Shown here: piece by piece, positions 829 through 63,983 of the stretch
How positions within the stretch are numbered: position 1 is the stretch's first letter
Layout of the letters: every line of letters begins with the position of its first letter
Assembly (NCBI GenBank): GCA_029237695.1
Contig: CM055265.1
Span: 40,045,840 to 40,109,839 of the forward strand
Origin: Conchocele bisecta
Lineage: Eukaryota > Mollusca > Bivalvia > Lucinida > Thyasiridae
Length of the DNA: 64,000 bases
Direction: 5' to 3'
Notes under the pieces: generated by a model
Seen by the model: the letters and a program-made list of their open reading frames with translations, nothing else
Database searches by the model: none
What the model was told of the DNA's origin: nothing
Made by a program: the position numbers and the translations under genes

Positions 829-1113
829 CTAGAGCACAGTCGATGGCGCGCCATCGCAATATACCCACGTTTCCCAAATGCGAAGTTGAAAAGGGGGAGA
901 TAATTCATGACCGGGGTTCGAATAAAAAATCAAAATTCACTGCGCATCTACACACCATAAGGAAGGCACACACCAAGTTTCAAGACCCTACCTATTACGG
1001 TTAAACAGTTTTACTTCTTACACGAAACATGACGGACGGACAGACGGACGGGCACCCGTGACGAAAACAATATACCCATTTAATTAGTTTTTTAAAAAGA
1101 AGTGGGTATAAAT
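829..1113 (-). mobile_element. RC-1 Helentron-like element, short copy
   Basis: On the minus strand it begins near 1113 with TATACCCACTT, whose complement follows closely, and then a GTCCGTCC-rich stretch. It ends with AAGTTTGGG-like and GGGTATATTG sequence, the hairpin CGATGGCGCGCCATCG (841-856) and a terminal CTAG at 829-832. The core holds about one unit of the roughly 170 bp repeat that is tandem in the copies at 49.4 and 54.9 kb. It has no coding capacity. The rolling-circle assignment is inferred from architecture alone. Confidence 0.6.
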
Positions 1114-2990
1114 AACTGTTTGCTCTGAAAGGCAGTATTCTTGTCTGATGACAGGCACCCTTACAGTACTGTCATGTGTTACGCACTATGTACACAATCA
1201 CTGGAATAGCGTGAGAGCAAAAGCCTGCATCGCTTGCGTGTTATTTCTACTGCATCGCAGTCTCTCATTCGCCTACTAGGAGACCACATTCAAGGGTAGC
1301 GAGTGGAAGTCTGCCACATGGCCAAACTGGCTATGGTAACATATTTGAGACAGTTGTTACCTCAGCTTGTGATCAGCTTGTCCTACCACCCACTTGTGTT
1401 TGTTTTGGGAGTGTGACGCTAGCAGTTTGTCTTTTGAAGACTCGACTCAAAATACGGGGGTTCCAAAGTACGAAGAAATGAGAGGGGAGGAGAGATAAAA
1501 TAATAACAATACCCGCAAGTCAAGAGATCCTTGATAATCGTCGAACAACACTAGAAGAACCATATCAATTGCTAGTGCACACAGTCTTATTGTATTTGTG
1601 TCACGACTTGACAATCCTTGAAATATCATCCCACAGTTACTGTGTCTAGTTCTTGACTTTTTGTATTATTATAGTTGGTGTAAACAGTATTTATTTCAAG
1701 AGAGATATGTGATATTATTGTAGTTGTACGTGTCACATGTCCCAAACATGTTGCCTTGAAATATCATCCCACCGTATTTCTTATATTAACATGACACACA
1801 TGTTAGCGTGCATTCAGATTGAAGCTTTTCATATTCAGACAACAGAAACGTCGAATGTTCGCGACATCGTCCCGCTTACAGTTGTACTTTGACCACATTG
1901 TGAAAAAAAAAACCGGACCTTACAATATCTGCAATAAATGTACGATAGGCGACCCATATCATGTCGGTGATCGAGAAAGGATCACCCAGTGAGTGAATGG
2001 CGAACATCGTATGTTCTGATCAGACGGCGCATATGCACATATGAGACTGATCTGTCGCTATACTAATCGTAACATCCATGGCTTTGTTGGTTTTTTTTAT
2101 TTATTTCTTAAAATCGGTAAAGGTTGAGCTAATTTTTAATTTTAAACATTGTATTAGAAAGAAAGAATTGATCAATAGACTGAAAATTTGCTTCGATTTA
2201 ACCAGATCTGAAACGTATAGTTGTGCGGGAAACCGGGCCCAGGCTACATAGGTCTACAAATATGATACCGATTATTTGTATGTATATGTAAATAAAACAT
2301 GTAGCTTACACGAGAGTTTTCACCTGTAAATGGTGGTCGATAACAGTTAACGTGGACAGTTAGCTGTAAACTGTGTCAAAGAAACTATTATGTGAAAATA
2401 AAGGAACATAAAAAACACACGTCAACAGACAAACATTTTTATATGATACCAATAGCAAAATAATAAAAGAAAATTACCCTTAACGGCTTTACGCCATTAT
2501 TGTTAATAAAAACATATAGATATGCCTGTTTCGAATAAAAATCGAGGTACGTTGTTGTTCTGTTCGTTAGATAACTTTGAACACCACGGAAAACCAAACC
2601 TAACATGGCGGTCTGACAAACGTCGATAATTGGAAATCTCGGCGGAAATTATGTCCGCTAAGTTCACGGCGTCATATCTTGTGACGTCGTCAGATTCCCG
2701 AAGACAGGTTTTCTCGCGACGCGGCTCATAGCATCCGCGATATTCAAAGAATAATATTTATAACAGTCTTGTGTTTTTTAGTAAATGATGACATGTTGCA
2801 ATATGCTTTGAAAGTGTCATAAATATTCGTTGTCATGTACGGAAGAAAATCATAAATTATGTAAATATTTTTCATGAACTATGACAACTGTGGAAATGTA
2901 TCAAATTACTTACATGGTTGGTCTCATAACGGATCACTGTGTACATAGTATACGCATATACAAATATAAGGCCAAATATTATAATTTGCA
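1114..2990. other. No gene recognised
   Basis: This is AT-rich sequence with only short, unconvincing open frames. A CpG-richer patch at about 2540-2730 holds a CRE-like TGACGTCGTCA and an ATGGCGG motif. It could be promoter-type DNA, but no exon can be tied to it. Confidence 0.4.
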
Positions 2991-3900
2991 AAGCGTTTTC
3001 CTGGTATCATTAATGTTACTCCTTCAAAAAAACTTTAGCCCTGATCAGACTGCGCGGACTTGAGATTGATACAGATCGAGCTCCGTGTCAGGTGCATGAT
3101 TTGGTGGCGAAATTCTTATTTCTCAATAAATGAAAGATAGCAAGTTAGGAGTCCTTTAGAATCGTCTCATTGAGATCATTGAGACTACTGCCCAATTGCC
3201 ATTTTTTTGGTGCAGAAATTTGTTGTTATCCAGAATTGATAAAATACTCACCTTAGCTTGAGCTCTGTTGATAGTTTATAAAACTTTTCTAATCAAACGT
3301 TTTAACTGTCATTCATTCAGTATCAAATAAACTGACTGCGTCTGTAGTTGTACTCTTGACCAAAGTTTGATGACCTGTTTATACACACTATCCCCAATTT
3401 ATTCCAACATGGAATGGGTGGTAGGAGGGAGCATGTGATGGGTAATTTAACGATCGTGTGTGTTCATCCTTCCCGGAATGCCGACCTACATGGTTTGGTC
3501 TTCTTGTATATTTTTGTTTTGCCCCCCCCCCCCCTCGGTACTTGAGAGCTGAATCACGTTATGCTCCAGTAAGAAATAATAAGCTTATCATAGCCCACAA
3601 CTTGCCATTTTTGGTGAAGAAATAACAAAATCCTACCTCAAATTTATCAAATTACGCACCTTGACTGAAGCTCTGTTGATAGTTTATAAAACTTTTGCAA
3701 TCGCCAACTTGGACTCAAAACATATTTCCTTTTGCACACGCACTAAGTACGATTCAAGTCGAGGCGTTTTGCTGGTATCATTATTGTTACTACTTCGATG
3801 AAAACAAAACACGACAAATATAGGCCCTGGTCAGACTGCACGGATGCGCTGGTTGATCTGGGGCTACACTGTCGCATTGGTTTTGAAGATTGAAGTAAGG
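2990..3900. repeat. Duplicated dispersed-repeat segments
   Basis: Two stretches recur as diverged copies. GCGTTTT(C/G)CTGGTATCATTA occurs at 2992 and 3764, both times followed by a CAGACTGC(G/A)CGGA motif. CTCTGTTGATAGTTTATAAA occurs at about 3262 and 3671. The CAGACTGCGCGGA segment belongs to the same dispersed family as 9695-9810, 35905-36030 and 56272-56390. Confidence 0.5.
3396..3536 (+). repeat. SINE-like repeat, 5' fragment with C13 tract
   Basis: It shares the ATTTAACGATC...GTTCATCCTT...TTTGGTCTTCTTGTAT succession with the fuller copies at 10388-10762 and 50878-51274. It ends in a run of 13 C at 3522-3534. Confidence 0.5.
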
Positions 3901-4526
3901 TTTTGCAATGAAGATATTTATTTCTGCAAGGTGTATGTAACATAACATATGCTACATGTAATTATGTATCAACAGCACATTTTAATTTGTAACTTGCTAG
4001 TGTGCTGGTCAGTTTGAACCCCAGATATATCTACACTGGTTAGAAGACTAGTGTGTTCTTGTATCATCAGCTTATAGCTGTTAGAACAAGCAATTCTCCC
4101 AGCATTATTGTAAATCAACACACACATGTTGTAGGCTACCAAGAGAGCATGGAACAAGATCAGGGTTGCTAATCCATTCAGACAATGATGAATCCAGTCG
4201 GTAACAGTCTAGATCCTGATGTGACTGCTCATTCTGATCTGAACCTAAGCTGCAAAGATTACGGTCATAATAGTCGCTGGTGGTAATAAAACTCACCTGT
4301 ACATATTCTCATGCACTATGGTCGAGTCTGGCTGTTACTGGAGACTCCAGCTGCAGCCACAGACGGACTAATGGGCAGTGAAAGTAGTTCAGCATGCTTT
4401 GTTATCTCATTAGCTGACCCCATAGTGCAATACAAAATCATTAACAGGAACATTAGCCTGTCAGAATCAGCTTGGCATTTGGCTGTTCGTTTTCTATGGG
4501 ACTGTACACATAATGTTGAAAGTTGT

Positions 4527-4923
4527 TAAAATGGTGACCCCGGGGTAAAAAATGGGCGTGGCCCGTGGGGTCAAATTGGGGTCAAATTTTATTTTTGACT
4601 GATTATGGTCATGTCATATATAACATTGAATGTATCAATGAGGCGATCACTCTGGTGCAATATTTGTCGGAATCGGATGATTATGTCATCCATGATGGCC
4701 ACCAAAAGGTCCATTTATTCAAGATTGTTAACGTCTTTTTCTCAGGAACCACATGGCCGATGCTGTGTGAAGCATTTTCAGATTTTGTAAAATGAGAGTC
4801 ATCGCTTAATCCAAGATGACCGCCATCTAAAAATAGCACAATTTTCACATGAACTCAATGTCACATTCTCCTCTGGTGTTCATGGAGTCAGGTGAGCGAA
4901 TTAGGGCCATCATGGCCCTCTTG
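4527..4923 (+). mobile_element. RC-6 Helentron-like element, 3' part
   Basis: This is one core unit (about 400 bp, containing GTGACCCCGGGGT and AAGATGACCGCC) and the intact 3' end. The 3' end has the subterminal motif TCAGGTGAGCG, the hairpin AGGGCCATCATGGCCCT and CTTG at 4920-4923 followed by T. The 5' end is missing here; it is present at 12527. Confidence 0.6.
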
Positions 4924-4927
4924 TTTC

Positions 4928-4990
4928 AAACTACTTGTGTATCTGGGGAGGGGGATACACATGCGCTTGTCGACAAGCGTCCATTTCTAG
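4928..4990 (+). mobile_element. RC-2 3' terminus fragment
   Basis: Subterminal GGGGGATAC, the perfect hairpin CGCTTGTCGACAAGCG and terminal CTAG (4987-4990) are nearly identical to 45630-45692. It lies directly after the end of an RC-6 copy, so the two elements abut. Confidence 0.65.
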
Positions 4991-7388: not shown

Positions 7389-7796
7389 CCAGATGGCCGC
7401 GGCCCGCATGTCGAGCCCGCCGAGGCATTTGATGGTCTCAGAGTGTATTTATTTGAAGTTTGATGCCCAATAAGCATACAAAGTTTCAAGCAAATCTGAC
7501 TTACGGTTACAGAGATAGTAGGTATGTGAAAACTTTAACGCAAATTTTGACAGAAACTTTAACGCAAACTTCAAGTCATTTGACCTTGACATAGGGGCAC
7601 AGGGTCCGCATGAGTGGGATACAGCATGAATGTATGGATCATGACTAATAAGCATATGAAGTTTCAAGTCAATGTGACTTAGGACTGCAGAGATATAAGG
7701 TATTTAAAAACTTTAACACAGATTTCGGACGGACGGACGCCCGGACGTCATTGTGATCACTATGTCTCACTTTCCGCAAGCGGGCTTGACACAAAA
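7389..7796 (-). mobile_element. RC-9 Helentron-like element
   Basis: On the minus strand the 5' end (near 7796) reads TGTCAAGCCCGCTTGCGG and is followed by a GTCC-rich run. The 3' end shows GGCGGGCTCGACA, the hairpin GGCCGCGGCC and ATCTGG. The interior holds about two units of about 190 bp with AAGTTTCAAG and CAGAGATA motifs. It has no coding capacity. The terminal base pattern CTGG departs slightly from the CTAG seen in other families. Confidence 0.5.
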
Positions 7797-12526: not shown

Positions 12527-14503
12527 TTAGCTCACCTGAGCGAAGCTCGTGAGCTATTGTTACCGCAATGTGTCCGTCCGTCATCCGTCTGTGAACATTT
12601 TCAAACGCCTTCTCCTCGGTAACCATTGGGCCTATAGTCACCAAACTTCATGGTCATGGTCCTTAGGTAGGGGGATTACAAAATTGTTAAACTGACGTCA
12701 ATATGTAATCCTAGATGGCCGCCGTCTAAAAAATAGACAAATTCTTCAAAAATCTTCTTCTCAAGAACCGCCTACCGGATTTCGACAAAACTTGGTTGGA
12801 ATGATCGATGTACAATGCTCTTTCAAAGTTGTTAAAATGGTGACCCCAGGGTCAAAAATGGGTGTGGCCCGTGGGGTCAAATTTTATTTTTGACCAAATA
12901 TGGTCATGTCATATATCAAATCGAAGGTATCAACGAGGCGATGACTGGTGAATTTTTTGTCGAAATTGGATGGTTATGTCATCCAAGATGGACGCCGAAA
13001 GGTCAATAGGTCGTTCTTTTATTAGAGATTTCAAAATTCTTCTTCACACAAACCGCTTGGCCCATGGTGGCCAAACTTCACAGTTATGGTCCATGGCTGA
13101 AATCTTTTCAGATTTGTTAAAATGGAGGTCATCGCTAATCCAAGATGGCCGCCGTCTAAAAATAGCATAAATTCTTAAAAAATCTTCTTCTCATGAACAG
13201 ATAGCCGGATTTCGACAAAACTTGGTAGGAATGATCAATGTACAATGCTATTTCAAATTTGTTAAAATGGTGACCCCGGGGTCAAAAATGGGCGTGGCCC
13301 GTCGGGTCAAATTGGGGTCAAATTTAATTTTTTACCGAATGGTCATTTCATATATCAAATCGAAGGTATCAATGAGGCGATGACTCTGGTGAATTTTTTG
13401 TCGAAATCGGATGGTTATGTCATCCAAGATGGCCGCATTAGAGATTTCAAAATTCTTCTCCACATGAACCGCTTGGCCCATGGTAGCCAAACTTAAAAGT
13501 TATGGTCCATGGGTGAAGCCTTTTCAGATTTGTTGAAATGGAGGTCATCGCTAATCGAAGATGGCCACCGTCTAAAAATAGCATAAATTCTTAAAAAATC
13601 TTCTTCTCTTGAACCGCCAGCCGGATTTCAACGAAACTTGGTAGGAATAATTGATGTACAATGCTCTTTCAACGTTGTTAAAATAGTGACCCTGGGGTAA
13701 AAAATGGGCGTAGCCCGTGGGGGTCAAATTGGTGTCAAATTTTATTTTTGACCGAATATGGTCATGTCATATATCAGATTGACGGTATCAACGAGGCGAT
13801 CACTCTGGTACATTTTTTGTCGAAATTGGATGGTTATGTCATCCAAGATGGCCGCCGAAAGGTCAAATGGTTGTTCTTTTATTAGAGATTTCAAAATTCT
13901 TCTTCACACGAACCGCTTGGCCCATGGTGGCCAAACTTCAGTTATGGTCCATGGGTGAAGCCTTTTCAGATTTGTTAAAATGGAGATCATCGCTAATCCA
14001 AGATGGCCGCCGTCTAAAAATAGCATAAATTCTTAAAAAATCTTCTTCTCATGAACCGCTCGCCGGATTTCAACGAAACTTGGTAGGAATGATTGATGTA
14101 CAATGCTCTTTCAAAGGTTGTTAAAATGGTGACCCCGGGATCAAAAATGGGCGTGGCCCGTGGGGTCAAATTTTATTTTTGACCGAATATGGTCATGTCA
14201 TATCAAATTGAAGGTATCAGCGAGGCGATCGCTCTGGTGAATTATTTGCCTAAATCAGATAGTTACGTCATCCATGATTGCCGCCAAAAGGTCCATTTAT
14301 TCAAGATTTTGAACGTCTTTTTCTCAGGAACCACATGGCTGATGCTGGCCAAACTTCATAGTAAGTTAAGATCCTTGGGTGAAGCATTTTCAGATTTGGT
14401 AAAATGAGAGTCATCGCTTAATCCAACATGACCACCATTTAAAACACATATGAACTCAATGTCATATTCTCCTCTGGTGTTCATGGAGTCATGTGGAGTC
14501 TTG
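12527..14503 (+). mobile_element. RC-6 Helentron-like element, long copy
   Basis: The 5' end TTAGCTCACCTGAGCG folds with the following CTCGTGAGCT and leads into GTCCGTCCGTCATCCGTC. The core consists of four units of about 415-450 bp; the landmark GTGACCC(C/T)(A/G)GG recurs near 12836, 13266, 13680 and 14127. The 3' end is eroded: the GGGCCATCATGGCCC hairpin of other copies is missing, but CTTG at 14500-14503 followed by TTT remains. Open frames inside are repeat shadows. It is non-coding and non-autonomous. Confidence 0.65.
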
Positions 14504-19230: not shown

Positions 19231-19231
19231 T

Positions 19232-33700: not shown

Positions 33701-35402
33701 CATCATTGTCGCACCTGCTTGCCAGGAAAGTCGCGATCCTGTGCCCAATGTCAAGGTCAAATTCTTTGAATTTTTTTGTTTAAAGTTTTTTTTTTGTTCG
33801 TACTATATCTCTGCAACTGCTTCACCCAATACCTTGATACTTCACATGGGTGTTTATCATCATTGTCGCACCTGCTTGCGGAAAGCGCGATCCTGTGCCC
33901 AATGTCAAGGTCTATTTACTTTGAATTTTTTTGTTAAAGTTTTTTCGTGTACTATATCTCTGCAACTGCTTCACCCAATACCTTCATACTTCACATGGGT
34001 GTTTATCATCATTGTCGCACCTGCTTGCGGAAAGCTCGATCCTGTGCCCAATGTCAAGGTCAAATTCTGAATTTTTTTGTTAAAGTTTTTTTGTGTACTA
34101 TATCTCTGCAACTGCTTCACCCAATACCTTGATACTTCACATGGGTGTTTATCATCATTGTCGCACCACTGCTTGCGGAATGCGCGATCCTGTGCCTACA
34201 TGTGTTTACAAGGTCAAATACTTTGAATTTTTTTGTTAAAGGTATTTTTTTGTTAGTCGTGTACTATATCTCTGCTAACTGCTTCACCCACCTACCTGAT
34301 ACTTCACAATGGGTGTTTTATCATCATTGTCGCACCTGCTTGCGGAAAGCGCGATCCTGTGCCCAATGTCAAGGTCAAATTACTTTGTAATTTTTTTGTT
34401 AAAGTTTTTTTCGTGTCTAATATCTGCAGCTTCACCCAATACCTTTGATACTTCCACATGGGTGTTTATCATCATTGTCGCACCTGCTTGCGGAAAGCTC
34501 GATCCTGTGCCCAATGTCAAGGTCAAATTCTGAATTTTTTTGTTAAAGTTTTTTTGTGTACTATATCTCTGCAACTGCTTCACTCAATACCTTGATACTT
34601 CACATGGGTGTTTATCATCATTGTCGCACCTGCTTGCGGAAAGCGCGATCCTGTGCCCAATGTCAAGGTCAAATTACTTTGAATTTTTTTGTTAAAGTTT
34701 TTTCGTGTTACTATATCTCTGCAACTGCTTCACCCAATACCTTCATACTTTCACATGGTGTTTATCATCATTGTCGCACCTGCTTGCGGAAAGCTCGATC
34801 CTGGCCCAATGACAAGGTCAAATTCTGATTTTTTTGTTTAAAGTTTTTTTTGTGTACTAATAATCTCTGCAACTGCTTCACCCAATACCTTGATACTTCA
34901 CATGGGTTGTTTATCATCATTGTCCCCCGCACCTGCTTGCGGAAAGCCGCGACCTGTTGCCCAATGTCAAGGTCAAATTACTTTGAATTTTTTTGTTAAA
35001 GTTTTTCTGTACTATATCTCTGCAACTGCTTCACCCAATACCTTGATACTTCACATGGGTGTATTATCATCATTGTTGCACCTGATTGCGGAAAGCGCGA
35101 TCCTGTGCCCAATGTCAAGGTCAAATTACTTTGAATTTTTTTGTTAAAGTTTTTTCGTGTACTATATCTCTGCAACTGCTTCACCCAATACCTTGATACT
35201 TCACATGGGTGTTTATCATCATTGTCGCACCTGCTTGCGGAAAGCGCGATCCTGTGCCCTATGTCAAGTTCAAATTACTTTGAATTTTTTTGTTTAAAGT
35301 TTTTTCGTGTACTATATCTCTGCAACTGCTTCACCCAATACCTTGATACTTCACATGGGTGTTTATCATCATTGTCACACCTGCTTGCGGAAAGCGCGAT
35401 AT
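30770..35402 (+). repeat. Satellite-like array, about 31 units of ~150 bp
   Basis: Each unit reads through ATATCTCTGCAACTGCTTCA, CACATGGGTGTTTATCATCA, TTGTCGCACCTGCTTGCGG, AAAGCGCGATCCTGTGCCCA and ATGTCAAGGTCAAATTACTT, then a T-rich spacer. CTCTGC lies at 31234, 31384 and 31534, giving a 150 bp period that is a multiple of three. Open frames therefore run through the array on both strands without being genes. Blocks at about 32360-32660, 33170-33300, 33580-33800 and 34180-34460 are unusually rich in small indels. Confidence 0.92.
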
Positions 35403-35545
35403 CGTCGGCATTTTGGCATACGTCCGTCCGTTCATCCGTGTGTCCGGTTAAAGTTTTTTGGTTAAAGTTTTTCCATCTACTATATCTATTTTTTTAGTGT
35501 CCATGCCTCGCCCCAAGGCGCGACATGCAGGCCACGGCCATCTAG
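35380..35545 (+). mobile_element. RC-7 Helentron-like element nested in RC-8
   Basis: It starts TTGTCACACCTGCTTGCGG with the complement AAAGCGCGAT, then ATCGTCGGCATTTTGGCATA and CGTCCGTCCG. It ends with AAGGCGCGACATGCAGG, the GGCCACGGCC hairpin and CTAG (35542-35545). The 49054-49228 copy has the same two ends. Confidence 0.6.
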
Positions 35546-35904
35546 TCTACAAAAAGTGGGTATAATTATGTTATCCAAGTGTCTATGCTTGGAAAAAACC
35601 TGGCCTTCGTGGCTTTGCCTCGTTTCTTGTTCAACATTATAATTATTCCTGTGTCAAAACCGCTCAAAGTACAGAACATTATTATATATCGTTAGAAAGC
35701 TTTCACCGAGTTCTATTCAGATAAAATATATACAAAGACTCACACACACAAATTAACATGTATTTAATACATAAACTGGAGAAATCCTGTTTTCCCTATA
35801 TAACTGTGAAACATCCCATATGTAGCAATGACAGGAGAAATGGCGCTTTATTTGTGACAAGTGTGGCACTTGATCAAATAGCACCCACCTGTAGCCTGAT
35901 AATG

Positions 35905-38316: not shown

Positions 38317-38747
38317 TTTATGCCCCCGCTACCGAAAGGTACGGGGGCATATAGTGTTACCAGCGTCCGTCCGTACGTCCGTCCCGTACGTCCCGTACGT
38401 CCTCCTGTCCGTCCCGTACGTCCGTCCTGTCCGTCCGTACGTCCCGATATTATATTCTTTAGTAACTTCTACATGGCTTCACATATTATGTCAATATTTA
38501 TACACGTGATACATATGAACATCCCTTACACACTCCACCCCCCAGTACTTCGACCTTCACCTTTGGCCTTGACCTTTTCCACTTTAATGTTTGCTTGGCA
38601 CTTTTGGGACAAATCTACGTGCACGTTTCTCAATCCTACAATAACTTCTCAATTACTTTTGCCAATCGCTTAAATATTTATACACATGATACATATGAAC
38701 ATGCCCTACACACTCCACCACCCAGTACTTCGACCTTGACCTTCACC
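38317..38747 (+). mobile_element. RC-4 Helentron-like element, 5' part and core
   Basis: The 5' end TTTATGCCCCCGCTACC folds with GGTACGGGGGCAT and leads to TAGTGTTACCAGCGTCC and a long CGTACGTCC run. About two core units of about 190 bp follow (ATACATATGAACAT.CC, CACTCCACC.CCCAGTACTT). It is cut short by the start of the next RC-4 copy at 38748. Confidence 0.6.
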
Positions 38748-38896
38748 TTTTTATGCCCCCGCAACCGAATGGTGAGTGGGGCATATAGTGTTACCGGCGT
38801 CCGTCCGTAATCGGGTAAATGGCTTGTAATCAAATATGCCTCATTTTCTTTGGCTGCCAGCGGGGGCATTCGTGTGCCGACAGGCCACATTTCTAG
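38748..38896 (+). mobile_element. RC-4 minimal element, 149 bp, both ends present
   Basis: 5' TTTTTATGCCCCCGCAACCG with a nearby GGGGCAT, a short CGTCCGTCCG zone, then 3' GCGGGGGCAT, GTGCCGACAGGCCACA and TTTCTAG ending at 38896. The tandem core is absent. This compact copy shows which parts are shared by all family members. Confidence 0.65.
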
Positions 38897-38979: not shown

Positions 38980-39395
38980 TCGGCGTCAGTGTAGGTGGAG
39001 TCAACATTTCACATTAAACTTTTGCGTTCAGCTCAATTTCCTTCAACCTCCATACTTGGTTTACATCAACACTGTGGTGTAACCATGTCACACAGAGGGA
39101 GCCCATGGGACCTTGACCTTGTTTTCATGGTTCATTGACCTACTTTTCACATGCATTCAACGTTAAGTGTTTGCATTTAGCTCTGTTTCTAAAACTTAAC
39201 GCTCAGGTTTATTCATTGTAACTACTGTTTCGGCCACAGACCTGAAACTTGGTATGTAGCTTCCTTATGATGAGTAGATGCACAAAGTTTATTTTGATTG
39301 TTTTATTTGACACCCAGGTCATGGATTATCTCCCCTTTTGCCTCGTTTATTATCAAAGCGATATGTGGGGCATCCATTTTCTATGAACACATTTT
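38930..39395 (+). repeat. Mosaic RC-type repeat with (GTCGGT)n tract
   Basis: GTGCCGCCTGCTTTAGCAG is followed by a hexamer GTCGGT/GTCGGC run (38948-38990). The sequence ends with the RC-3 style terminus GTGGGGCATCC...CTATGAACACATTTTC, but the final CTAG is mutated to CAGG. It looks like two elements fused. Confidence 0.5.
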
Positions 39396-39400
39396 CAGGT

Positions 39401-41928: not shown

Positions 41929-42640
41929 TTGTATCCCCCGGACTCCGTCGGGGGATACTATGGATTTGACAGCTCGCCGCGTCCGCGTCCGCGTCCGCCG
42001 CAGACACTTCTTGTCCGGAGCATAACTCGAACACCCTTTGGAATATTTTCATGAAACTTCACACATGCATAGACCACGACCCGAAGGTGTGTCACGCACA
42101 AGAATGACAACTCTTGCATAGCTAATTTTTTAGTTATCTCCCTTTTTTGTTTCTCACTGATTTCGTGTCCGGAGCATAACTCCACCACCCTTTGGAATAT
42201 TTTCATGAAACTTCACACATGCATAGACCACGACCCGAAGGTGTGTCGCGCAGAAGAATACAACTCTTGCATAGCTAATTTTTTTAGTTATCTCCCTTTT
42301 TTGTTTCGCGCACTGATTGACCATAACTCACCACCCTTTGGAATATTTTTATGAAACTTAACACATTCAATTAGACCACGAACCGAAGGTGTGTCGTAGC
42401 ACAAGAAAGACAACTCTTTGCATAGTAATTTATGAGTTATCTCCCCTTTTTTGTTTTTCCGCGCACTGATTTTCCTGTCCGGCAGCATAACTCGACCACC
42501 CTTTGGAAATTTTATTTTCATGAAACTTCACACATGCCATAGACCACGAACCGGAGTGTGGTCACGCACAAGAAATGGAACAACTCTTGCGTTAGCTAAT
42601 TTTTTAGGTTTATCTCCCTTTTTTTGGTTTTTTGCGCAAT
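41929..42640 (+). mobile_element. RC-2 Helentron-like element, 5' part and core
   Basis: The 5' hairpin GTATCCCCCGGACTCCG / CGGGGGATAC is followed by GTCCGCGTCCGCGTCCGCC. About four units of about 150-165 bp follow (CCGGAGCATAACTC, CACCCTTTGGAATATTTTCA, GAAACTTCACACATGCATAG, TTAGTTATCTCCCTTTTTTG). The last units have many extra single bases. Confidence 0.65.
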
Positions 42641-42799
42641 CTCACAAACTTGGACAATAATGCATGAAGACCCGTTTTCCTCGTCAGGCTCTGTCAAAAC
42701 CTTTTCTCGTGTGCTCTGTAAACCTTAACCGAAAAGAGAACAATAGAGACAGGAGAACCTTGTGATAGCCATGGGTCTGCATGTGCAAATGTCCAGTGC

Positions 42800-43745
42800 T
42801 TGACCACTGCTGACCACAGGTAATTTATACAGGTAAATTACTACATTGGGTACTGTGTTGAAAATATTGTGGCATTATGTGACCTGTGCAATAGATATAT
42901 GTAGATAAATATATGGACTATTAAAAAAAATCTGGGCTCCAGTAGCAAGCATTATTATTTTTTAACTTTTTTTTTCCATTTTTTCTTTTTCATTTTTTTT
43001 TTTTTTTCATTTTTTTTTTCATTCTTTTTTTTCCAATTTTTTTTTTTCTTTTTTTTTTTCATTTTTTTTTTTCAAATTATTTTTAAATTTTTGTCTAGTA
43101 GCATAAGGTCGTAAGTGCTATATACAGACTATTCACCCGTGCATGTGCTAGCATGTGCAACTGACCACTGACCACTTACAGGTAATTTATACAGGTAAAT
43201 GATTATATTACATTTCCGTAAACTGTGTTGAAAATATTGTGGCAATATGTGGACCTGTATATATATATATGTAGATAAATATAGGACTATTAAAAAACAT
43301 TCTGGGCTCCAGTAGGGAGCATTATTCTCTTCTTTTTTTTTTTTAATTTTTTTTTTCATTTTTTTTTTTTCCATTTTTTTTTTTACATTCTTTTTCAATT
43401 TTTTAACTGACCACTAACTTATTACAGGTAATTTATACAGGTACATTATTACATTTCCGTAACTATTAACAAAAATTCTGGGCTGCAGTAGCAAGCATTA
43501 TTATTATTATTTTTTTTGTATATTACATTTCCGTAAACTGTGTTGAAAATATTGTGGAATTATGTGGACCTGTGCAGATATATGTAGATAAATATAGGAC
43601 TATTAAAAAAAAATCTGGGCTCCAGTAGCAAGCATTATTATTTTTAATTTTTAAAAAAAAAAATCATTTTTTTTTTTCAAATTCTTTTTCTATTTTTGTC
43701 TAGTAGCATAAGGTCGTAAGTGCTATATACAGACTATTATCATAT
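42800..43745. repeat. T-rich tandem repeat, 3-4 copies
   Basis: Each copy has CAGGTAATTTATACAGGTA, TGTGTTGAAAATATTGTGG, ATATGTAGATAAATATA and TCTGGGCTCCAGTAG, then a long T-rich run. Copies start near 42810, 43160, 43420 (deleted) and 43515. CTAGTAGCATAAGGTCGTAA at 43095 and 43698 links it to the 6481 palindrome. Confidence 0.65.
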
Positions 43746-43751
43746 AATAAA

Positions 43752-43817
43752 ACAATTATTGACTAGTGAGCCATAGAATATAATCTGATATTCTATGGCT
43801 CACTAGTCAATAATTGT
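43752..43817. repeat. 66 bp perfect hairpin
   Basis: Two 30 bp arms (ACAATTATTGACTAGTGAGC... and its exact complement) surround the loop AATCTG. Confidence 0.92.
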
Positions 43818-43983
43818 ATAATATATTCGGCCAGTGAAAATTGCTTTCGGGCCCAGGCTCGAGGTCAAGGCGGGACAAGGCGAGGCATCTGATTCCGCGG
43901 AATTCTTGTTTACTTATCTCCCTTTGTTGTTTCGTGCTCTGATTTTGTATCCAGAGCATAACTCGAACACCCTTTGGAATATT

Positions 43984-45322
43984 TTTATGCCCCACCACGA
44001 TAGTGGAGGGGGCATTTAGTGTTATCCTCGTCAGTCCGTCCGTCCGTCCGCACACACGAATGGGTACTTGTTGTAAGCGTACGGGGATCTTATTGGGTAG
44101 GGTTAGGATAGTGTTAGGTACTCTTGTTGGGTATTTTTATACAGTAAAAACCCAACAAGTATTCATTCGTAGGAACATGCGTCCCGTCCTCCCGTCCGTC
44201 CGTCCGTCACAAAACTTTAACACTCGGGTAAATGTCTCATAATTTCTTCATCCTTCGACCGATCTGCTTCATATTTCATATACACATTGCTCTGATGGTT
44301 CACTACCGCCCTGTGCCAAATCCACGTTCGTCCTGCACCCGGCAAGCCCAGGGTCAAGGTCACATACTTGGTGCTTCAAAAACTTTAACTCTCAGGTTAA
44401 TATCTTATAATTTCTGTTTTCTTTCACGGATCAGCTTCATACTTCATATACGCATTGCTCTAATGGTCCTCTACCGCCCTGTGCCAAATCCACATTCGTC
44501 CTGCCTCCGCCAAGCCCAGGGTCAAGGTTACATACTTGGTGCTTCAAAAATAACGTCCGTCGGGTAAATATCTTATAATTTCTGTTTTCTTTCACGGATC
44601 AGCTTCATATTTCATATACGCATTGCTCTAATGGTCCTCTACCGCCCTGTGCCAAATCCACGTTCGTTCTACCCCCGCCAAGCCCAGGGTCAAGGTCACA
44701 TACTTAATGCTTCAAAAACTTTAACGCTCGGGTAAATATCTTATACTTTCTGTTTTCTTTCATGGATCATCTTCATATTTCATATACGCATTGCTCTAAT
44801 GGTCCTCTACCGCCCTGTGCCAAATCCACGTTCGTCCTGCCCCGCCAATCCCAGGGTCAAGGTCACATACTTGGTGCTTCAAAAACTTTAACGCTCGGGT
44901 AAATATCTTATAATTTTTCTTTCCACTCACGGATCAACTTCATATTTCATATATGCGTTGCTCTAATGGTCCTCTACCGCCCTGTGCCAAATCCACGTTC
45001 ATCCTGCCCCCGCCAAGCCCAGTGTTAACATCACATACTTAGTGCTTCAAAAACTTTAACGCTCAGGTAAATATCTTATAATTTCTGTTTTCTTTTACGG
45101 ATCAGCTTCATATTTCATATATGCATTGCTATAATGATCCTCTACCGCCCTGTGCCAAATCCACGTTTGTCCTGCCCCCGCCAAGCCCAGGGTCAAGGTC
45201 ACATACTTGGTGCTTCAAAAACTTTAACTCTCGGGTAAAAGAAAATTTTGTCTTGGAATTTGGCCTCATTTATTATCAAAGCGACATGTGGGACATCCGT
45301 GTTCTATGAACACATTTTCTAG
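43984..45322 (+). mobile_element. RC-3 Helentron-like element, complete, nested in RC-2
   Basis: 5' TTTATGCCCCACCACG with a nearby GGGGGCAT, then GTCCGTCCGTCCGTCC. The core has six units of about 168 bp (44211-45240: ATTGCTCTAATGGTCCTCTA, CCGCCCTGTGCCAAATCCAC, AGCCCAGGGTCAAGGTCACA). The 3' end is a diverged subterminal GTGGGACATCC, the hairpin GTGTTCTATGAACAC and CTAG (45319-45322). It is inserted between two T residues of an RC-2 unit without target duplication. Confidence 0.78.
44055..44172. mobile_element. Small MITE within the RC-3 GTCC zone
   Basis: ACGAATGGGTACTTGTTG and CAACAAGTATTCATTCGT are near-perfect inverted ends 118 bp apart. They interrupt the CGTCCGTCC run, which resumes on the right. 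Confidence 0.65.
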
Positions 45323-45692
45323 TTTATTAAACTTCACATATGCATAGAAGACGACCCAAAGGTGTGTCGCACGTAAGAATGACAACTCTTGCGTCGTTAA
45401 TTTCTTAGTTATCTCCCTTTGTTGTTTCGTGCACTGATTTCGTGTCTGGAGCATAACTCGAACACCCTTTGGAATATTTTCATGAAACTTCACACATGCA
45501 TAGACCACAACCCTAAAGGTGTGTCACGCAAGAATGACAACTCTTGCATCACTAATTTTTTAGTTATCTCCCTTTGTTTTTTCTGTCACTGATTTTGTCT
45601 CCGGAGCATAACTCGAACACCCTTTTTTCAAACTACTTGTGTAACTGGGGAGGGGGATACACATGCGCTTGTCGACAAGCGTCCATTTCTAG

Positions 45693-48503: not shown

Positions 48504-49312
48504 ATTTGAATGAACATATCACTATTCAACATGTTACTTTTTTTTTAACTTCACCCATTTTTTCCGCGTAGTCGACTTAGCCATTTTCAATGTTAAGTTT
48601 TCGCGTTTACAATGTTAAGTTTTCGTGTAAGTCCATTTCTTTGGTACTGTACCACCTAGGACCACCAAACTTTCACAGCTTCATAACCAAGGGGTGCCTA
48701 TCACATACAACTATCCAACATGTGACCATTTTTTTACCTTCACCTATTATTTCTACGTAATTGACTTAGCCATTTTCAACGTTAACTTTTTAACGTACGT
48801 CTGGTTAAAGTTTTTTGGTTAAAGCTTTTTCGTTATACTATATCTCTGCAACTGCTTCGCCCATTACCTTGAAACTTCACATGGGTGTTTATCATCATCC
48901 ATATTTTCATTCTAACCCCCAACCGTGCGGCCCTTGTGCCCAATGTCAAGGTCAAATTACTTTGAATATTTTTGTTAAAGTTTTTTCGTGTACTATATCT
49001 CTGCAACTGCTTCACCCATTACCTTGATACTTCACATGGGTGTCTATCATCATTGTCGCACCCGCTTGCGGAAAGCGCGATATCGTCGGCATTTTGGCAT
49101 ACGTCCTTCCGTCCGTACGTCCGTGTCCGGTTAAAGTTTTTTTGTTAAAGTTTTTCCATCTACTATATCTATTTTTTAAGTGTCCATGCCTCACCCCAAG
49201 GCGCGACATGCAGGCCACGGCCATCTAGTCTACAAAAAGTGGGTATAATTATGTTATCCAAGTGTCTATGCTTGGAAAAAACCTGGCCTTCGTGGCTTTG
49301 CCTCGTTTCTTG
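48504..49312 (+). mobile_element. RC-8 element copy with unexpanded core
   Basis: It matches RC-8 at 30074 but starts internally (TATCACTATTCAACATGTTA). It has the GTACCACCTAGGACCACC unit and only about 1.5 of the 150 bp units (48838-49075). It contains the RC-7 copy 49054-49228 and ends AAAAAACCTGGCC...TTTCTTG at 49312. Confidence 0.65.
49054..49228 (+). mobile_element. RC-7 Helentron-like element, complete copy
   Basis: 5' TGTCGCACCCGCTTGCGG with AAAGCGCGAT, then CGTCCTTCCGTCCGTACG. 3' AAGGCGCGACATGCAGG, GGCCACGGCC and CTAG (49225-49228). It is about 175 bp long with no tandem core. Confidence 0.65.
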
Positions 49313-49427: not shown

Positions 49428-50013
49428 CTAGAAAAAGTCGATGGCGCGCCATCGCAATATACCCACTTTCCCCAAATGCTAAGTCCGAAAGGGGGAGGTA
49501 ATCCATGATGGAGGGTCGGATAAAAAATCCGAATTCACTTTGCGCATCAGCACATCAAAACGAAGCTACGAACCAAATATCAGACGCGTAGGTATTAAGG
49601 TGAAAAAGTTTTTCGACCTACGAGGAAAAATAGTGAAATTCTAAGTCCGAAAGGGGGAGATAATCCATGATGGAAGGTCGGATGAAAAATCCGAATTCAC
49701 TTTGCGCATCATAACGAAGCTACATATCAAATATCAAAAATGTAGGTATTAAGGTGAGAAAGTTTTTCGACTTACAATGAAAAATAGGGAAATTCTGAGT
49801 CCGAAAGGGGGAGATAATCCATGATGGAGGGTCGGATCAAAAATCCGAATTCACTTTGCGCATCTGCACATGATAACGAAGCTACATAGCAAATATCAGG
49901 CGAGTAGGTATGAAGGTGAAAAAGTTTTTCGAGTTACAAGGAAAAAATGGGAAATTTTGAGTCCGAAAGGGGGAGATAATCCATGATGGAGGGTTCCAAA
50001 AAAGTGGGTATAA
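49428..50013 (-). mobile_element. RC-1 Helentron-like element (intron 1)
   Basis: Minus-strand 3' end: hairpin CGATGGCGCGCCATCG, ACTTTTT, CTAG (49428-49431). The core has about 3.2 units of about 170 bp (CCTCCATCATGGATTATCTC, GATGCGCAAAGTGAATTCGG complements). The 5' end near 50013 reads TATACCCACTTTTTT but lacks the GTCC zone. It is highly similar to, and inverted relative to, 54838-55768. Confidence 0.7.
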
Positions 50014-53600: not shown

Positions 53601-54046
53601 CTAGAAATGTGGCCTGTCGGCACACGAATACCCCCACTGGCAGCCAAAGAAAACGAGGCATTTTTGATTATAAGCCATTTAGCCGAGCGTTAAGGTTTCA
53701 AACGCATCAAGTCTGTGACCTTGACCCTGGGCATAGTGTGATAATCCATGCATCGGTGTAGAAGATATAGAGCGGAAGGGAATTTCAATAGGTTTGACCT
53801 TTGACCTTCAACTGTGACCTTGACCTTGGACGTAGGTGCGTGGTTATTGATCGCGACACACCTTCTCATCATGAGAAACATTTGTGCCAAGCCATTTGAT
53901 AATCCATGCATGGGTGTAGAAGATATAGAGCGGAAGGGAATTTCCAACAGACCGACCGACATCGACCGACACCGACCGACCGACCGACCGACCGACAAGC
54001 TGACTCCTATATACCCCCTCAAACTTTGTTTGTAGGGGTATAATAA
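53601..54046 (-). mobile_element. RC-5 Helentron-like element
   Basis: Minus-strand 5' end TTATACCCCTACAAAC with the complement GAGGGGGTATA nearby, then a GTCGGTCGG run (53958-53999). The core has about two units (TCTATATCTTCTACACC, complement of GGTGTAGAAGATATAGA, at 53756 and 53909). 3' end GTGGGGGTATTCG, GTGCCGACAGGCCACATTT and CTAG (53601-53604). Its 3' end is almost that of RC-4, but the subterminal motif is changed to match its own 5' end. Confidence 0.65.
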
Positions 54047-54106
54047 TTAAATAATTGTACATGGTGTTTATTTGATGTTTCTTCCAGAAGACATCACAGA
54101 CGCCAA

Positions 54107-54814: not shown

Positions 54815-54837
54815 AGATGAAATCAAATCCTTCATTA

Positions 54838-55768
54838 TTATACCCATTTTTTTTGTAAAAAAAAGTGGGATATTGTTTTCGTCACGGGTGTCCGTCCGTA
54901 CGTCCGTCCGTACGTCCGTCACGTTTCTTGTAACTCGAAAAACTTTTTCACCTTCATACCTACGTGCCTGATATTTGGTATGTAGCTTCGTTATCATGTG
55001 CAGATGCGCAAAGTGAATTCGGATTTTTGATCCGACCCTCCATCATGGATTATCTCCCCTTTACTCAGAATTTCCCATTTTTTCTTTGTAACTCGAAAAA
55101 CTTTTTCACCTTCATACCTACGCGCCTCATATTTGCTATGTAGCTTCGTTATCATGTGCAGATGCGTAAAGTGAATTCGGATTTTTGATCCGACCCTCCA
55201 TCATGGATTATCTCCCCCTTTCGGACTCAGAATTTCCCATTTTTTCCTTGTAACTCGAAAAACTTTTTCACCTTCATACCTACGCGCCTGATATTTGGTA
55301 TGTAGCTTCGTTATCATGTGCAGATGCGCAAAGTGAATTCGGATTTTTTATCCGACCCTCCATCATGGATTATCTCCCCCTTTCGGACTCAGAATTTCCC
55401 ATTTTTTCTTTGTAACTCGAAAAACTTTTTCACCTTCATACCTACGCGCCTCATATTTGCTATGTAGCTTCGTTATCATGTGCAGATGCGTAAAGTGAAT
55501 TCGGATTTTTGATCCGACCCTCCATCATGGATTATCTCCCCCTTTCGGACTCAGAATTTCCCATTTTTTCCTTCTAACTCGAAAAACTTTTTCACCTTCA
55601 TACCTACGCGCCTCATATTTGCTATGTAGCTTCGTTATCATGTGCAGATGCGCAAAGTGAATTCGGATTTTTGATCCGACCCTCCATCATGGATTATCTC
55701 CCCCTTTCGGACTTAGCATTTGGGGAAAGTGGGTATATTGCGATGGCACGCCATCGACTTTTTGACTA
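54838..55768 (+). mobile_element. RC-1 Helentron-like element, long copy (intron 2)
   Basis: 5' end TTATACCCATTTTTTTTG with the complement AAAAGTGGGATA, then GTCCGTCCGTACGTCCGTCC. About five core units of about 165-170 bp follow (ACTCGAAAAACTTTTTCACC, ATGTAGCTTCGTTATCATGT, GATGCGCAAAGTGAATTCGG, CATCATGGATTATCTCCCCC). 3' end AAGTGGGTATATTG and the hairpin CGATGGCACGCCATCG; the final CTAG is mutated (TTTTTGACT). Confidence 0.72.
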
Positions 55769-56441: not shown

Positions 56442-57378
56442 TTTTTATGCCCCACCACGATAGTGGAGCAGTCATGTAGTGTTACCTCGTCCATCCGTCC
56501 GTCCGGGCAAACATTGGGGTGTTTAGGGGCTAGGGGGAGGAGCCTAAGACAAAAGAATACAATAGACTTATTCCGTATAGCCCCTAAGCCTTTGTAGTTT
56601 AGGGGCTATTCCTTTGATCTTGTAAAGAACAAATAGCCCATAAACCCAAAATGTTAGTCTGTCCGTCCGAGCAAACAAGGGTGTAGAAGGGGCCATGGGG
56701 CGGAGCCTAACACAAAAGAATCCTTTGATTTATTCCATATGGCCCCTTATTCTATTCATTACAAGGGGCCATCTCTTTGATATAAGAAACAATGGAAATG
56801 GCCCCTTCTTCACTATTGGTGGGCCGTCTGTCCGTCTGTCCGTCACCAACCTTGTAACTGGTAAAACTTTTAAACCTTACTAGCTACAGACCTAAAAGTT
56901 GGTATGTAGCTTCCTTATGATGAGTAGATGCGCAAAGTTTATTTTGATTTTTGATTCGACCCCCGGATCATGGATTATCTCCCCCTTTTCGACATTTCCC
57001 AATTTTGCTTTGTAACTCGTAAAACATTTAAACCCTAATAGCTACAGACCTAATACTTAGTATGTAACTTCCTTATGATGAATAGATGCACAAAGTTTAT
57101 TTTGATTTTTTATTCGAACCCCGGGTCATTGATTATCTTCCCCTTTTCAACTTAGAATTTCCCAATTTTGCTTTGTAACTCGTAAAACTTTTAAACCGTC
57201 ATAGCTACAGACCTGAATCTTGGTATGTAGCTTCCTTATGATGAATAGATGCGCAAAGTTTATTTTTGATACAACCCCTGGGTCATGGATTATCCACCCC
57301 TTTTGGACTGAGAATTTTGCCTTGTTTACTATCAAAGCGGTATGTGGGGCATCCGTGTTCTATGAACACATTTTCTAG
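56442..57378 (+). mobile_element. RC-3-type Helentron-like element with a different core
   Basis: 5' TTTTTATGCCCCACCACG followed by GTCCGTCCGTCCGGGC. Two units of about 160 bp follow (GGGGCTA...GGAGCCTAA(G/C)ACAAAAGAAT at 56525 and 56690), then about three units of about 150 bp (CTACAGACCT.A.ACTTGGTAT). 3' GTGGGGCATCC, hairpin GTGTTCTATGAACAC and CTAG (57375-57378). Both ends equal RC-3 at 43984, but the core is unrelated. That points to core exchange between families. Confidence 0.7.
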
Positions 57379-61576: not shown

Positions 61577-62404
61577 TTTTAGCCAGGTTTTTTTTTACCC
61601 AGGCTATTGGATTGGCAAAGGGCGGGCGGGCGGCGTCCACAATCAATGTTAAGTTTTCATGTTTTCGTCCATTTCTTTGTTACTGTACCACATAGGACCA
61701 ACAAACTTTCACAGCTTCATAACCAAGGGGTGCCCACCACATATCACTATTCAACATGTTACCTTTTTATGAACTTAACCCATTTTTTCAGCACAGTCGA
61801 CTTAGCCATTTTCAATGTTAACTTTTCGCGTTTACAATGTTAAGTTTTCGTGTTTTAAGTCCATTTCTTTGGTACTGTACCACCTAGGACCACCAAACTT
61901 TCACAGCTTCATAACCAAGGGGTGCCCACCACATACAACTATCCAACATGTGACCATTTTTTTTACCTTCACCTATTATTTCTACGTAATTGACTTAGCC
62001 ATTTTCAACGTTAACTTTTTAACGTACGTCTGGTTAAAATCTTTTGGTTAAAGTTTTTTGTTATACTATATCTCTACAACTGCTTCGCCCATTACCTTGA
62101 AACTTCACATGGGTGTTTATCATCATCCATATTTTCATTGTACCCCCCAACCGTGCGGCCCCTGTGCCCAATGTCAAGGTCAAATTACTTTGAATTTTTT
62201 TTTTTTAAAGTTTTTTCGTGTACTATATCTCTGCAACTGCTTCACCCAATACCTTGATACTTCACGTGGGTGTTTATCATCATTGTCGCGCCCGCTTGCG
62301 GAAAGCGCGATATAGTCGGCATTTTGGCATACGTCCGTCCGTCCGTACATCCGTGTGTCCGGTTAAAGTTTTTTGGTTAAATTTTTTCCATCTACTATAT
62401 CTCT
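61577..62404 (+). mobile_element. RC-8 element copy, 3' end replaced
   Basis: 5' TTTTTAGCCAGGTTTTTTTT with CCAGGCTATTGG and GGCGGGCGGGCGGCGTCC. Two GTACCAC.TAGGACCA units and about 1.5 of the 150 bp units follow (62060-62300). The 5' end of RC-7 (TGTCGCGCCCGCTTGCGG at 62284) comes next. It breaks off where RC-6 begins at 62405. Confidence 0.65.
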
Positions 62405-62529
62405 TTTTAGCTCACCTGAGCGAAGCTCATGTGAGCTATTGTTACCGCAATGTGTCCGTCGTCGTCCGTGAACATTTTCAAACGTCTTCTCCTCGGTAAC
62501 CATTGGGCCTATAGTCACCAAACTTCATG
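62405..62529 (+). mobile_element. RC-6 5' end fragment
   Basis: TTTTAGCTCACCTGAGCG with CTCATGTGAGCT, then GTCCGTCGTCGTCCGTG and CGGTAACCATTGGGCCTATA, as at 12527-12660. It is cut at 62529. Confidence 0.65.
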
Positions 62530-62967
62530 CAGGGGTTGAAATTTCACTCGCCCAGCTCGCCATGGCGAGTGCTTTTTGTGGCGGTCGAGTACTTTCTGAA
62601 GAAATTGCCAATTAATTCCATCGATAACGGCCAACAAATGGTATTAATTCAGCGACCATTTGTTGTTTACAGTTTACGTCAATTTGCGTGAAGTAAGATT
62701 CAAGCAGTGTCTATGTACACGGTTACGGGTAGAATCGCTAGCGATTTTGAACGCGCTCTATATCGGGCAAGTTTAATTCACGGATTATTTGTCGGCTGTA
62801 CGCGGCCGGGCTAGCAAATAATATGACTGCGAGTATAGACTAGTGTATACACGGCCACATATATCGTCTCGTATACAGTTGGGTTAACGCGCATTTCAGA
62901 CGCCGAACATAACGGCTTGGGACGAAACAGTTGGCGCCGGGTCCGAAACCATTGAATTTGGTAATTA
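62530..62967. other. Unassigned sequence with short hairpin
   Basis: CAGGGGTTGAAATTTCACTC and the hairpin ACTCGCC...GGCGAGT (about 62547-62572) suggest a DNA-transposon end. The rest is unassigned and CpG-richer than its surroundings. Confidence 0.4.
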
Positions 62968-63612
62968 AGGTTACCCTTGTCCGTCCGTCCGTCCCGTCCG
63001 TCGCGAAACATTAATGCTCGGGTAAATGTCTCATAATTTCTTCATCCTTTGACCGATCTGCTTCATATTTCATATACACATTGCTCTAATGGTCCTCTAC
63101 CGCCCTGTACCTAATCCACGTTCATCCTGCCCCCGCCAAGCCCAGGGTCAAGGTCACATACTTGGTGCTTCAAAAACTTTAACACTCGGGTAAATATCTT
63201 ATAATTTCTGTTTCCTTCCATGGATCAGCTTCATACTTCATATACACATTGCTCTAATGGTCCTCTACTGTCCTGTGCCAAATCCATGTTCGTCCTGCCC
63301 CCGCCAAGCCCAGGGTCAAGGTCACATACTTAGTGCTTCAAAAACTTTAACGCTCAGGTAAATATCGTATAATTTCTGTTTTCTTTCACGGATCAGCTTC
63401 ATACTTCATATACGCATTGCTCTAATGGTCCTCTACCGCCCTGTGCCAAATCCACGTTCGTCCTGCCCCCGCCAAGCCCAGGGTCAAGGTCACATAATTG
63501 GTGCTTCAAAAACTTTAACGCTCAGGTAAATATCTTATAAATTTCTGTTCCCTTTCACGGATCAGCTTCATCCTTCATATACGCATTGCTCTAATGGTCC
63601 TCTACTGTCCTG
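62968..63612 (+). repeat. RC-3 core array, about 3.8 units of ~168 bp
   Basis: After a TTGTCCGTCCGTCCGTCCCG run, the units repeat ATTGCTCTAATGGTCCTCTA, CCCCGCCAAGCCCAGGGTCA and CTTCAAAAACTTTAACGCTC, the unit of 44211-45240. The last unit is fused to RC-6 sequence at TGTCCTGTGTCCTGTCC. Confidence 0.75.
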
Positions 63613-63983
63613 TGTCCTGTCCAAAAATGGGCGTGGCCCGTGGGGTCAAATTTTATTTTTGACCGAATATGCTCATGTCATATATCAAATTGAAGGTATC
63701 GATGAGGCGATTGCTCTGGTGCAATATTTGTCAGAATCGGATCATTATGTCATCCATGAAGGCTGCCAAAAAGGTCCATTTATTCAAGATTTTAAACGTC
63801 TTTTTCTCAGGAACCACATGGCCGATGCTGGCCAAACTTCATAGTAAGTTAAGATCCTTGGGTGAAGCATTTCAGATTTGGTAAAATGATAGTCCTCGCT
63901 TAAAACACATGAACTCAATGTCACATTTTCCTCTGGTGTTCATGGAGTGAGGTGAGCGAATTAGGGCCATCATGGCCCTCTTG
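63613..63983 (+). mobile_element. RC-6 Helentron-like element, 3' part
   Basis: One core unit (GGCGTGGCCCGTGGGGTCAA, TTATGTCATCCATGAAGG), then GAGGTGAGCG, the hairpin AGGGCCATCATGGCCCT and CTTG (63980-63983). It is nearly identical to 4527-4923. Confidence 0.65.

Follow-up and report, generated by a model that had tools for sequence, protein, structure and literature searches.

The 64,000-nucleotide stretch of the Conchocele bisecta genome analysed here (hereafter the window) raises the question of whether a set of repeat families, RC-1 to RC-8, whose ends follow one design, might owe their spread to one kind of machinery, and where the proteins of that machinery might be encoded. The elements, which were defined by comparing the window with itself and by direct reading of the letters, run in the order of a T-run, a 5' subterminal inverted repeat (subTIR), an inverted copy that pairs with it, usually a GTCC-type microsatellite, a body or tandem core, the 3' subTIR, a hairpin, CTNG and T. 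We consider it very probable, from sequence comparisons, that these repeats are non-autonomous Helentrons (HINE/Helitron2 type) that would be mobilised in trans by Helentron Rep, helicase and endonuclease proteins recognising the shared ends. They have the subterminal inverted repeats, 3' and 5' hairpins and T-rich insertion sites of Helentrons, and a partner with Rep, PIF1 and endonuclease domains carries the same ends. The original prediction, that the families form one Helentron-type mechanistic class, is well supported by the fixed termini of RC-2, by empty sites in T-runs and by the existence in the genome of Rep/helicase/endonuclease elements with both RC-1 ends or with the RC-6 3' end.

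Such a gene-carrying element was to be sought, according to the original prediction, in the same genome, and it was found for RC-1 with both ends and for RC-6 with the 3' end. A profile search with Helitron_like_N (PF14214) located at least 77 places in the genome and none in 14 control genomes, and six of these Rep matches were read downstream at length. A known RC module lies downstream on the same strand at four of the six (loci L051, L055, L056 and L057); this alone is weak evidence because the modules are dense, and it is the comparison of copies that decides. The gene-carrying RC-1 element at C3:111895902-111911046 has both RC-1 ends and two frames of 2,046 and 818 amino acids, with Helitron_like_N, PIF1, Exo_endo_phos and OTU domains, and is arranged as RC-1 5' module, GTCC zone, 162-bp array, gene frames, 162-bp array and RC-1 3' module. 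Its 3' untranslated region (UTR) recurs near a Rep match at two further places: at C1, 516 of its 541 letters are matched at 100%, and at C2, where it recurs in part, the first 178 are matched at 99%. The perfect RC-1 end of C2 follows the Rep match at a distance of about 8 kb. At both places the UTR runs into a perfect RC-1 end, with CTAG before TT and with different flanks. The C1 copy (C1:92493488-92505697, its letters read on either side of 92496001-92504649) also has both RC-1 ends with the Rep match inside; an array precedes its 3' end, an RC-1 5' module with array is likewise present, and its likeness to the C3 element begins at that 5' module. As a separate observation, the 3' end of the C2 element occurs twice in tandem, 590 bp apart (L059:200-900).

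For RC-6 the partners are L056 and L057. Their identity is 95.7% over 4,756 bp, a span that includes coding frames, and 97.4% over the final 233 bp, which run to CTTGTTT; beyond this point the two diverge. Rep and helicase domains were called in both, and an endonuclease in L057. The Rep regions of the RC-1 and RC-6 partners are 38% identical over 441 residues, and at least two Helentron lineages are therefore involved. The Rep domain carries FQQRGSPHIHG, which we take to be the HUH-type motif. Seven Rep/helicase protein pieces gave no tblastn hit in the window itself at 0.01. A candidate coding partner for RC-4 in L055 was dropped, since the stretch preceding its 3' end has matches to other repeats at many positions.

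The alignment of copies and the comparison of empty sites, both proposed with the original prediction as checks, fix the termini of RC-2 and point to insertion into T-runs without duplication beyond T for RC-2, RC-3a and RC-6b. A 67-letter query spanning an RC-3 end and its RC-2 flank scored at no fewer than 40 places in the genome, of which 30 were extracted, one of them being the window's own copy. The RC-2 3' module is present in 28 of the 30 (it is absent from L015 and L019) and terminates in CTAG 26 times and in CTTG and CTAT once each, with T as the next base in 27 of 28. Both RC-2 modules could be read in 16 of 20 longer stretches, and each of these has T as the last base of its left flank. 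The flanks of the copies are mostly different, those to the right of L041 and L043 being alike, and the RC-2 copy of L037 occupies the same host repeat as RC-2a of the window. Unfilled paralogues were found by searching with the joined flanks. The empty site of RC-2a is L036:236-315, and those of the L037 copy are L036:222-294 and window 41876-41929; in each case the filled site has one additional T and nothing else is duplicated. RC-6b, inserted in RC-8c at a site that is empty in RC-8a and RC-8b, is accompanied by two to three extra T, and RC-3a, inserted in a unit of the RC-2 core that is empty in three other units, shows small differences on its right side and no duplication beyond T. At the empty sites compared, which are those of RC-2, RC-3a and RC-6b, no target duplication beyond T was found. 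We also observed that the two RC-2 copies lie about 15 bp apart in paralogues of the host repeat, the left flank of the window copy being the empty site of L037.

The elements of the window are as follows.

829..1112, minus strand: RC-1a, HINE with 5' subTIR TATACCCACTT at the 1112 end, 5' inverted copy, GTCC zone and partial 162-bp core, and with 3' subTIR, palindrome GCGATGGCGCGCCATCG and CTAG at 829
49428..50012, minus strand: RC-1b, HINE without GTCC zone or 5' inverted copy; its 3' side is 97.5% identical over 553 bp to the C3 gene-carrying element
54839..55768, plus strand: RC-1c, HINE with 162-bp core and mutated terminal CTAG, matching both ends of the C3 Helentron
41930..45692, plus strand: RC-2a, HINE with 154-bp core, a composite that holds RC-3a and has the empty site given above
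4924..4990, plus strand: RC-2b, 3' end only, its left side joined to the 3' part of an RC-6 copy
43986..45322, plus strand: RC-3a, HINE inside the RC-2 core, with 168-bp core and mutated 3' subTIR GTGGGACAT
56446..57378, plus strand: RC-3b, HINE with a 158-bp core related to the RC-1 core; CTAG is followed by A
39233..39399, plus strand: RC-3c, a copy's 3' end in which the terminal CTAG has mutated to CAGG
38319..38444, plus strand: RC-4a, 5' module (hairpin of -14.9 kcal/mol as DNA) and GTCC microsatellite
38752..38896, plus strand: RC-4b, short element with both ends present
53601..54042, minus strand: RC-5, HINE with a 3' module 93% identical to that of RC-4b
12528..14503, plus strand: RC-6a, HINE with 416-bp core; 3' subTIR and hairpin lost
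62408..63983, plus strand: RC-6b, HINE in RC-8c, with 168-bp core; empty sites in RC-8a and RC-8b
4516..4923, plus strand: RC-6c, 3' part whose terminal 52 bp are 100% identical to the end of the L057 Rep/helicase element
30074..35629, plus strand: RC-8a, HINE with 200-bp and 149-bp (~31 units) arrays and an RC-7 3' end at 35517-35545
48514..49312, plus strand: RC-8b, 5'-truncated copy with an RC-7 3' end at 49200-49228
61581..64000, plus strand: RC-8c, split by RC-6b and continuing past the window edge
7389..7791, minus strand: RC-7-like family with both ends, CTGG before TTT

The eight complementary motif pairs of the original prediction are all present in the window, and seven are exact reverse complements. 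The RC-6 pair matches over 10 of 11 letters. Both members lie within one element for RC-1, 2, 3, 4, 5 and 8 (all exact pairs), and the RC-6 and RC-7 pairs had been assembled across different copies: within RC-6b the pair has one mismatch, and for RC-7 the 5' letters come from RC-8c and the 3' letters from RC-8a and RC-8b. The order of 3' subTIR, hairpin, CTAG or CTTG, and T can be read directly in seven families (RC-1, 2, 3, 4, 5, 6 and 8), so that the ending first proposed is correct for these; it does not extend to the family at 7389-7791, which terminates in CTGG, nor to RC-3b with its following A, and the end letters are lost in some copies (RC-1c, RC-3c, RC-6a). The strand layout also had to be amended, as both RC-1a and RC-1b, and RC-5, lie on the minus strand.

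How far the design might arise by chance was approached in two ways. A scan for the full design (subTIR pair with at most one mismatch, 5' inverted copy, GTCC-type zone, hairpin and CT[AT]GT) returned three elements of the window, RC-1a, RC-2a and RC-6b, against two hits in total over 60 local dinucleotide shuffles and one in the reversed sequence; it misses the remaining families because of mutated letters, bulges and nesting. Without the GTCC condition there were nine hits, four of them at described ends, against 0 to 8 in the shuffles (more than four in 3 of 60) and two in the reversed sequence. Scanning for perfect 9-letter subTIRs gave two hits when the 5' inverted copy was required, against none in 20 shuffles and none in reverse, and was uninformative when it was not required (eight hits against 1 to 7 in 20 shuffles and eight in reverse). 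A better test against chance than these automatic scans, in our ranking, is the number of copies: the RC-6 end plus TTT (37 letters) has 7,153 exact copies in the 1.89-Gb genome and the RC-1 end (42 letters) has 2,219, each with a backwards control of 0. The RC-3/4 end had no match in a viral collection. A matrix of own versus other family pairings, in which the own pairing was the best of 40,320 permutations and highest in seven of eight rows, was set aside as circular, since the pairs had been chosen for their complementarity.

When the modules were folded as single-stranded DNA and scored against shuffles, a 5' hairpin of subTIR and inverted copy was formed by all nine 5' modules (z -2.0 to -6.2), a set to which RC-1b, having no 5' inverted copy, does not belong. 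The original prediction had placed a hairpin at the 3' end of every family. Among the eight 3' modules folded, this holds above shuffle level for RC-2, 3 and 6 (z -2.0 to -2.7); the hairpins of RC-1, 4, 5 and 8 form at shuffle level (z -0.6 to -1.0), and that of the RC-7 window copy is not formed (z +0.86). At one position of the 5' hairpin of the RC-3/4/5 group, the genome-wide counts are 5,839 for G/C, 2,625 for A/T, 163 for G/T and 131 for A/C, so that 8,464 of 8,758 copies have matching forms, with all backwards controls at 0; these are counts of copies and not of events, and a handful of switches at the level of families could yield the same table. The matched sites do not prove pairing, since the match could also be maintained by a protein that recognises the two of them. 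A wobble test for the strand that folds was abandoned, G/T and A/C being too near equality to be of use. Compensatory changes, together with a switch of pairing at termination, have been proposed by Bao and Jurka in the part of their report available to us (PMC3627910).

From this anatomy and from published work, Rep would nick at the 5' end and the strand would be peeled off as far as the 3' hairpin; the HUH-type motif and what is known of the family suggest that a single strand is transferred from the 5' end by a rolling-circle process. The 5' subTIR, held in its local hairpin, might then re-pair with the 3' subTIR at termination, and HINEs would use the proteins of their partners in trans. 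The RC-1 HINEs might be internal-deletion derivatives that lost the genes between two flanking 162-bp arrays. Two parts of the C3 element align with RC-1c, 884 nt on the 5' side (94%) and 655 nt on the 3' side (92%), as expected if genes were lost in this manner. It is a tentative suggestion, to which we would give somewhat less than an even chance, that a HINE core is inherited from a gene-carrying Helentron with arrays on two sides and is not a captured host satellite, that the loss of the genes makes the HINE, and that end modules and array then spread, nest and exchange cores at GTCC microsatellites. The basis for this suggestion is one family with two copies, C3 and C1, in which the genes are flanked on either side by the HINE satellite array, and its odds are lowered because the C2 copy has no 3' array.

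Several other origins for these repeats and their apparent partners can be considered. Canonical Helitrons (Helitron1), which begin with TC, have a 3' hairpin, end in CTRR and insert between A and T, would account for the 3' hairpins and for the endings CTAG and CTGG; that the repeats belong to them is nonetheless very unlikely, given that the 5' ends read in the window are TGTATCC, TATGCCC, TAGCTC and AGCCAGG, that there are 5' hairpins and subterminal inverted repeats, that RC-6 and RC-8 end in CTTG, that the insertions are into T-runs and not at A/T junctions, and that the partner has an endonuclease domain. Still less credible are miniature inverted-repeat transposable elements (MITEs) or other cut-and-paste elements with short inverted ends. 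They would share with our repeats the short inverted repeats near both ends, the AT-rich target and the lack of genes, but the empty sites read without target duplication beyond T, the inverted repeats are asymmetric with CTNG at one end only, and the matching gene-carrying elements encode Rep and helicase, with no DDE transposase in the 13 frames searched.

The Rep/helicase loci of RC-1 might, on the other hand, be other Helentrons that inserted by chance into an RC-1 array, the shared ends then being meaningless. HINE 3' ends are indeed dense (roughly one every 8 kb on a strand, as estimated from the element list), RC-2 composites adjoin the Rep genes in L056 and L057, and the missing 3' array of C2 would also fit. 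Against such nesting, no termini of a second element were seen by eye at the inner array borders of C3, and the phase of the array, worked out by hand, is discontinuous across the C3 genes. The C3 and C1 copies have nearly the whole 3' UTR in common and C2 has the first part of it, all three reaching the RC-1 end among different flanks; on the 5' side the likeness between C3 and C1 sets in where the RC-1 5' module begins, and the two RC-6 loci have coding region and UTR in common to the last base. We regard chance nesting as highly improbable.

Some observations weigh against the assignment to non-autonomous Helentrons served by these partners. A coding partner is linked, by shared sequence, for two of the eight families only, RC-1 and RC-6. 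No known module was found in the 9.5-9.9 kb downstream of the Rep matches of L052 and L054, and the 5' end of the RC-6 partner is absent from 3 kb near L057 (C13:550300-553300). The helicase of C3 is split between its two frames and its 3' hairpin is cut, and no intact copy was found in the letters read; in addition to its missing array, C2 retains no more of RC-1 than its terminal 98 bp; and RC-1 sequences in the opposite orientation flank the C1 copy, at about 100 bp in front and 1 kb behind (their positions being L058:2040-2451 and L060 near 1889). As to the hairpins, four of the eight at the 3' end are no better than shuffles and a fifth is not formed, and two mispaired variants of the 5' hairpin recur many times among the matches listed.

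The families had been described as at least eight and unrelated, a claim with which shared modules, shared cores and nesting are at odds. The similar 3' modules of RC-4b and RC-5 differ in their subTIRs (GCGGGGGCAT and GTGGGGGTAT, respectively), and the 5' subTIR and its inverted copy differ correspondingly. The 5' module with TAGTGTTA is common to RC-3 and RC-4, and that of RC-5 is different; RC-4 is thus linked to RC-3 by its 5' module and to RC-5 by its 3' module. The cores of RC-1 and RC-3b are about 77% alike, and the 168-bp cores of RC-3a and RC-6b are 91% alike, the likeness starting in the GTCC zone. The stretches 62979-63614 (RC-6b) and 44186-44819 (RC-3a) present the same 168-bp core and GTCC zone between different element ends. 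A second GTCC zone was also noticed at the junction in RC-6b, RC-3a and RC-3b.

The composites of RC-3 in RC-2 and of RC-7 in RC-8 are, as the recurrence of their sequences indicates, copied as units, and we suppose that HINEs which insert into each other in this way would then travel on the outer ends. The damaged RC-3 subTIR letters TGGGACAT recur in 27 of the 30 composite loci; the RC-3 end itself is found in all 30 because the query contained it. The composite spreads on the RC-2 ends, because 28 of the 30 loci end in the RC-2 terminus. RC-8 contains the 3' end of RC-7 in two copies of the window and in L019. The units of the 149-bp array repeat the RC-7 5' module, with 14 pattern matches within the array, so that one element holds many potential start sites. 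This array occupies 30747-35400, and an early unit in it is without the RC-7 5' pattern. Outside RC-8 the RC-7 end was found at three loci that represent one single context, with a perfect palindrome in two of the three; the RC-7 ends of L033 and L047 lie between both ends of an RC-2 composite. The CTGG-ending family was found at three loci with different flanks, the hairpin letters being altered in L039.

The design itself is known already; what is new here is the members, the link to partners and the two-sided arrays. The closest likeness is to Cg_HINE of the oyster Crassostrea gigas, for which the portion of the source at hand (PMC7492417) describes a 5' subTIR, inverted repeat, GTCC microsatellite, satellite-like core of 140-180 bp, 3' subTIR and palindrome, a T-rich target without target-site duplication, and both related and unrelated combinations of flanks and cores. 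According to the same portion, a given core is tied to one pair of flanks in the oyster, whereas here a 168-bp core stands between RC-3 as well as RC-6 termini; and the Pacific oyster HINEs could not be related to any autonomous Helentron, so that the oyster partner is unlinked, whereas here it is linked for RC-1 and RC-6. Excerpts of other reports state that autonomous elements were not detected in the Pacific oyster and that the family was taken as inactive (PMC7992393), and a later review mentions the shared arrays of oysters in the section available (PMC12628747). No bivalve HINE linked to its coding element was found in our searches, which covered open-licence papers. The Pearl elements CvA, CvE and CvG of oysters and MgE of a mussel resemble ours, by description only, in their central repeats of ~160 bp between conserved flanks (PMC7492417 and PMC11136912, both in part).

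Helentrons and HINEs of a mite, Culex and Drosophila, including DINE-1, are described in the accessible part of PMC4067079 as having subTIRs and a 3' stem-loop in common with Rep/helicase/endonuclease partners, with a T-rich target that is left unmodified and with OTU-like proteases among the carried domains (from a figure legend). The elements reported here differ from them in that their sequences are new; in addition, two gene-carrying copies here have the HINE array to the left and right of their genes, an arrangement that was not met in that part of the source. Helitron2, in the excerpt of PMC3627910, has a 5' asymmetric terminal inverted repeat (ATIR) in a 5' hairpin and a 3' ATIR before a 3' hairpin, with compensatory changes and the proposed pairing switch; the compensation there concerns two Culex elements, and the many matching copies counted here might represent few independent changes. 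Composites formed by self-insertion are already in print, as the available text of PMC5148889 indicates. The occurrence in one genome of HINEs and of Rep/helicase elements with exact common ends opens their partnership, and the origin of the satellites that Helentrons carry, to direct testing, and the two-sided arrays offer a concrete route from a coding element to a satellite carrier.

Other repeats are interspersed with these elements. At 16228-21334 there is a long terminal repeat (LTR) retroelement with two direct repeats of 1.29 kb that are 98.7% identical and with gag-type frames on the minus strand; a Pfam search of ten window frames gave Retrotrans_gag above the cut-off and three weak matches below it, a zinc knuckle among them. 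A search with the gag protein gave 85 hits, one of them from the crinoid Antedon. At 21826-22240 a hairpin-like 5' stretch with a GTCC zone precedes an array that is related to another one, of 157-181 bp, at 5111-6172, and this is possibly a further HINE family. A palindromic MITE-like repeat lies at 43742-43826, and the same letters, as seen by eye, form the left flank of the RC-2 copy in L043. A 21-bp tandem array (CAAACAGTGGGGGCAATCCTA) at 54104-54815 adjoins RC-1c.

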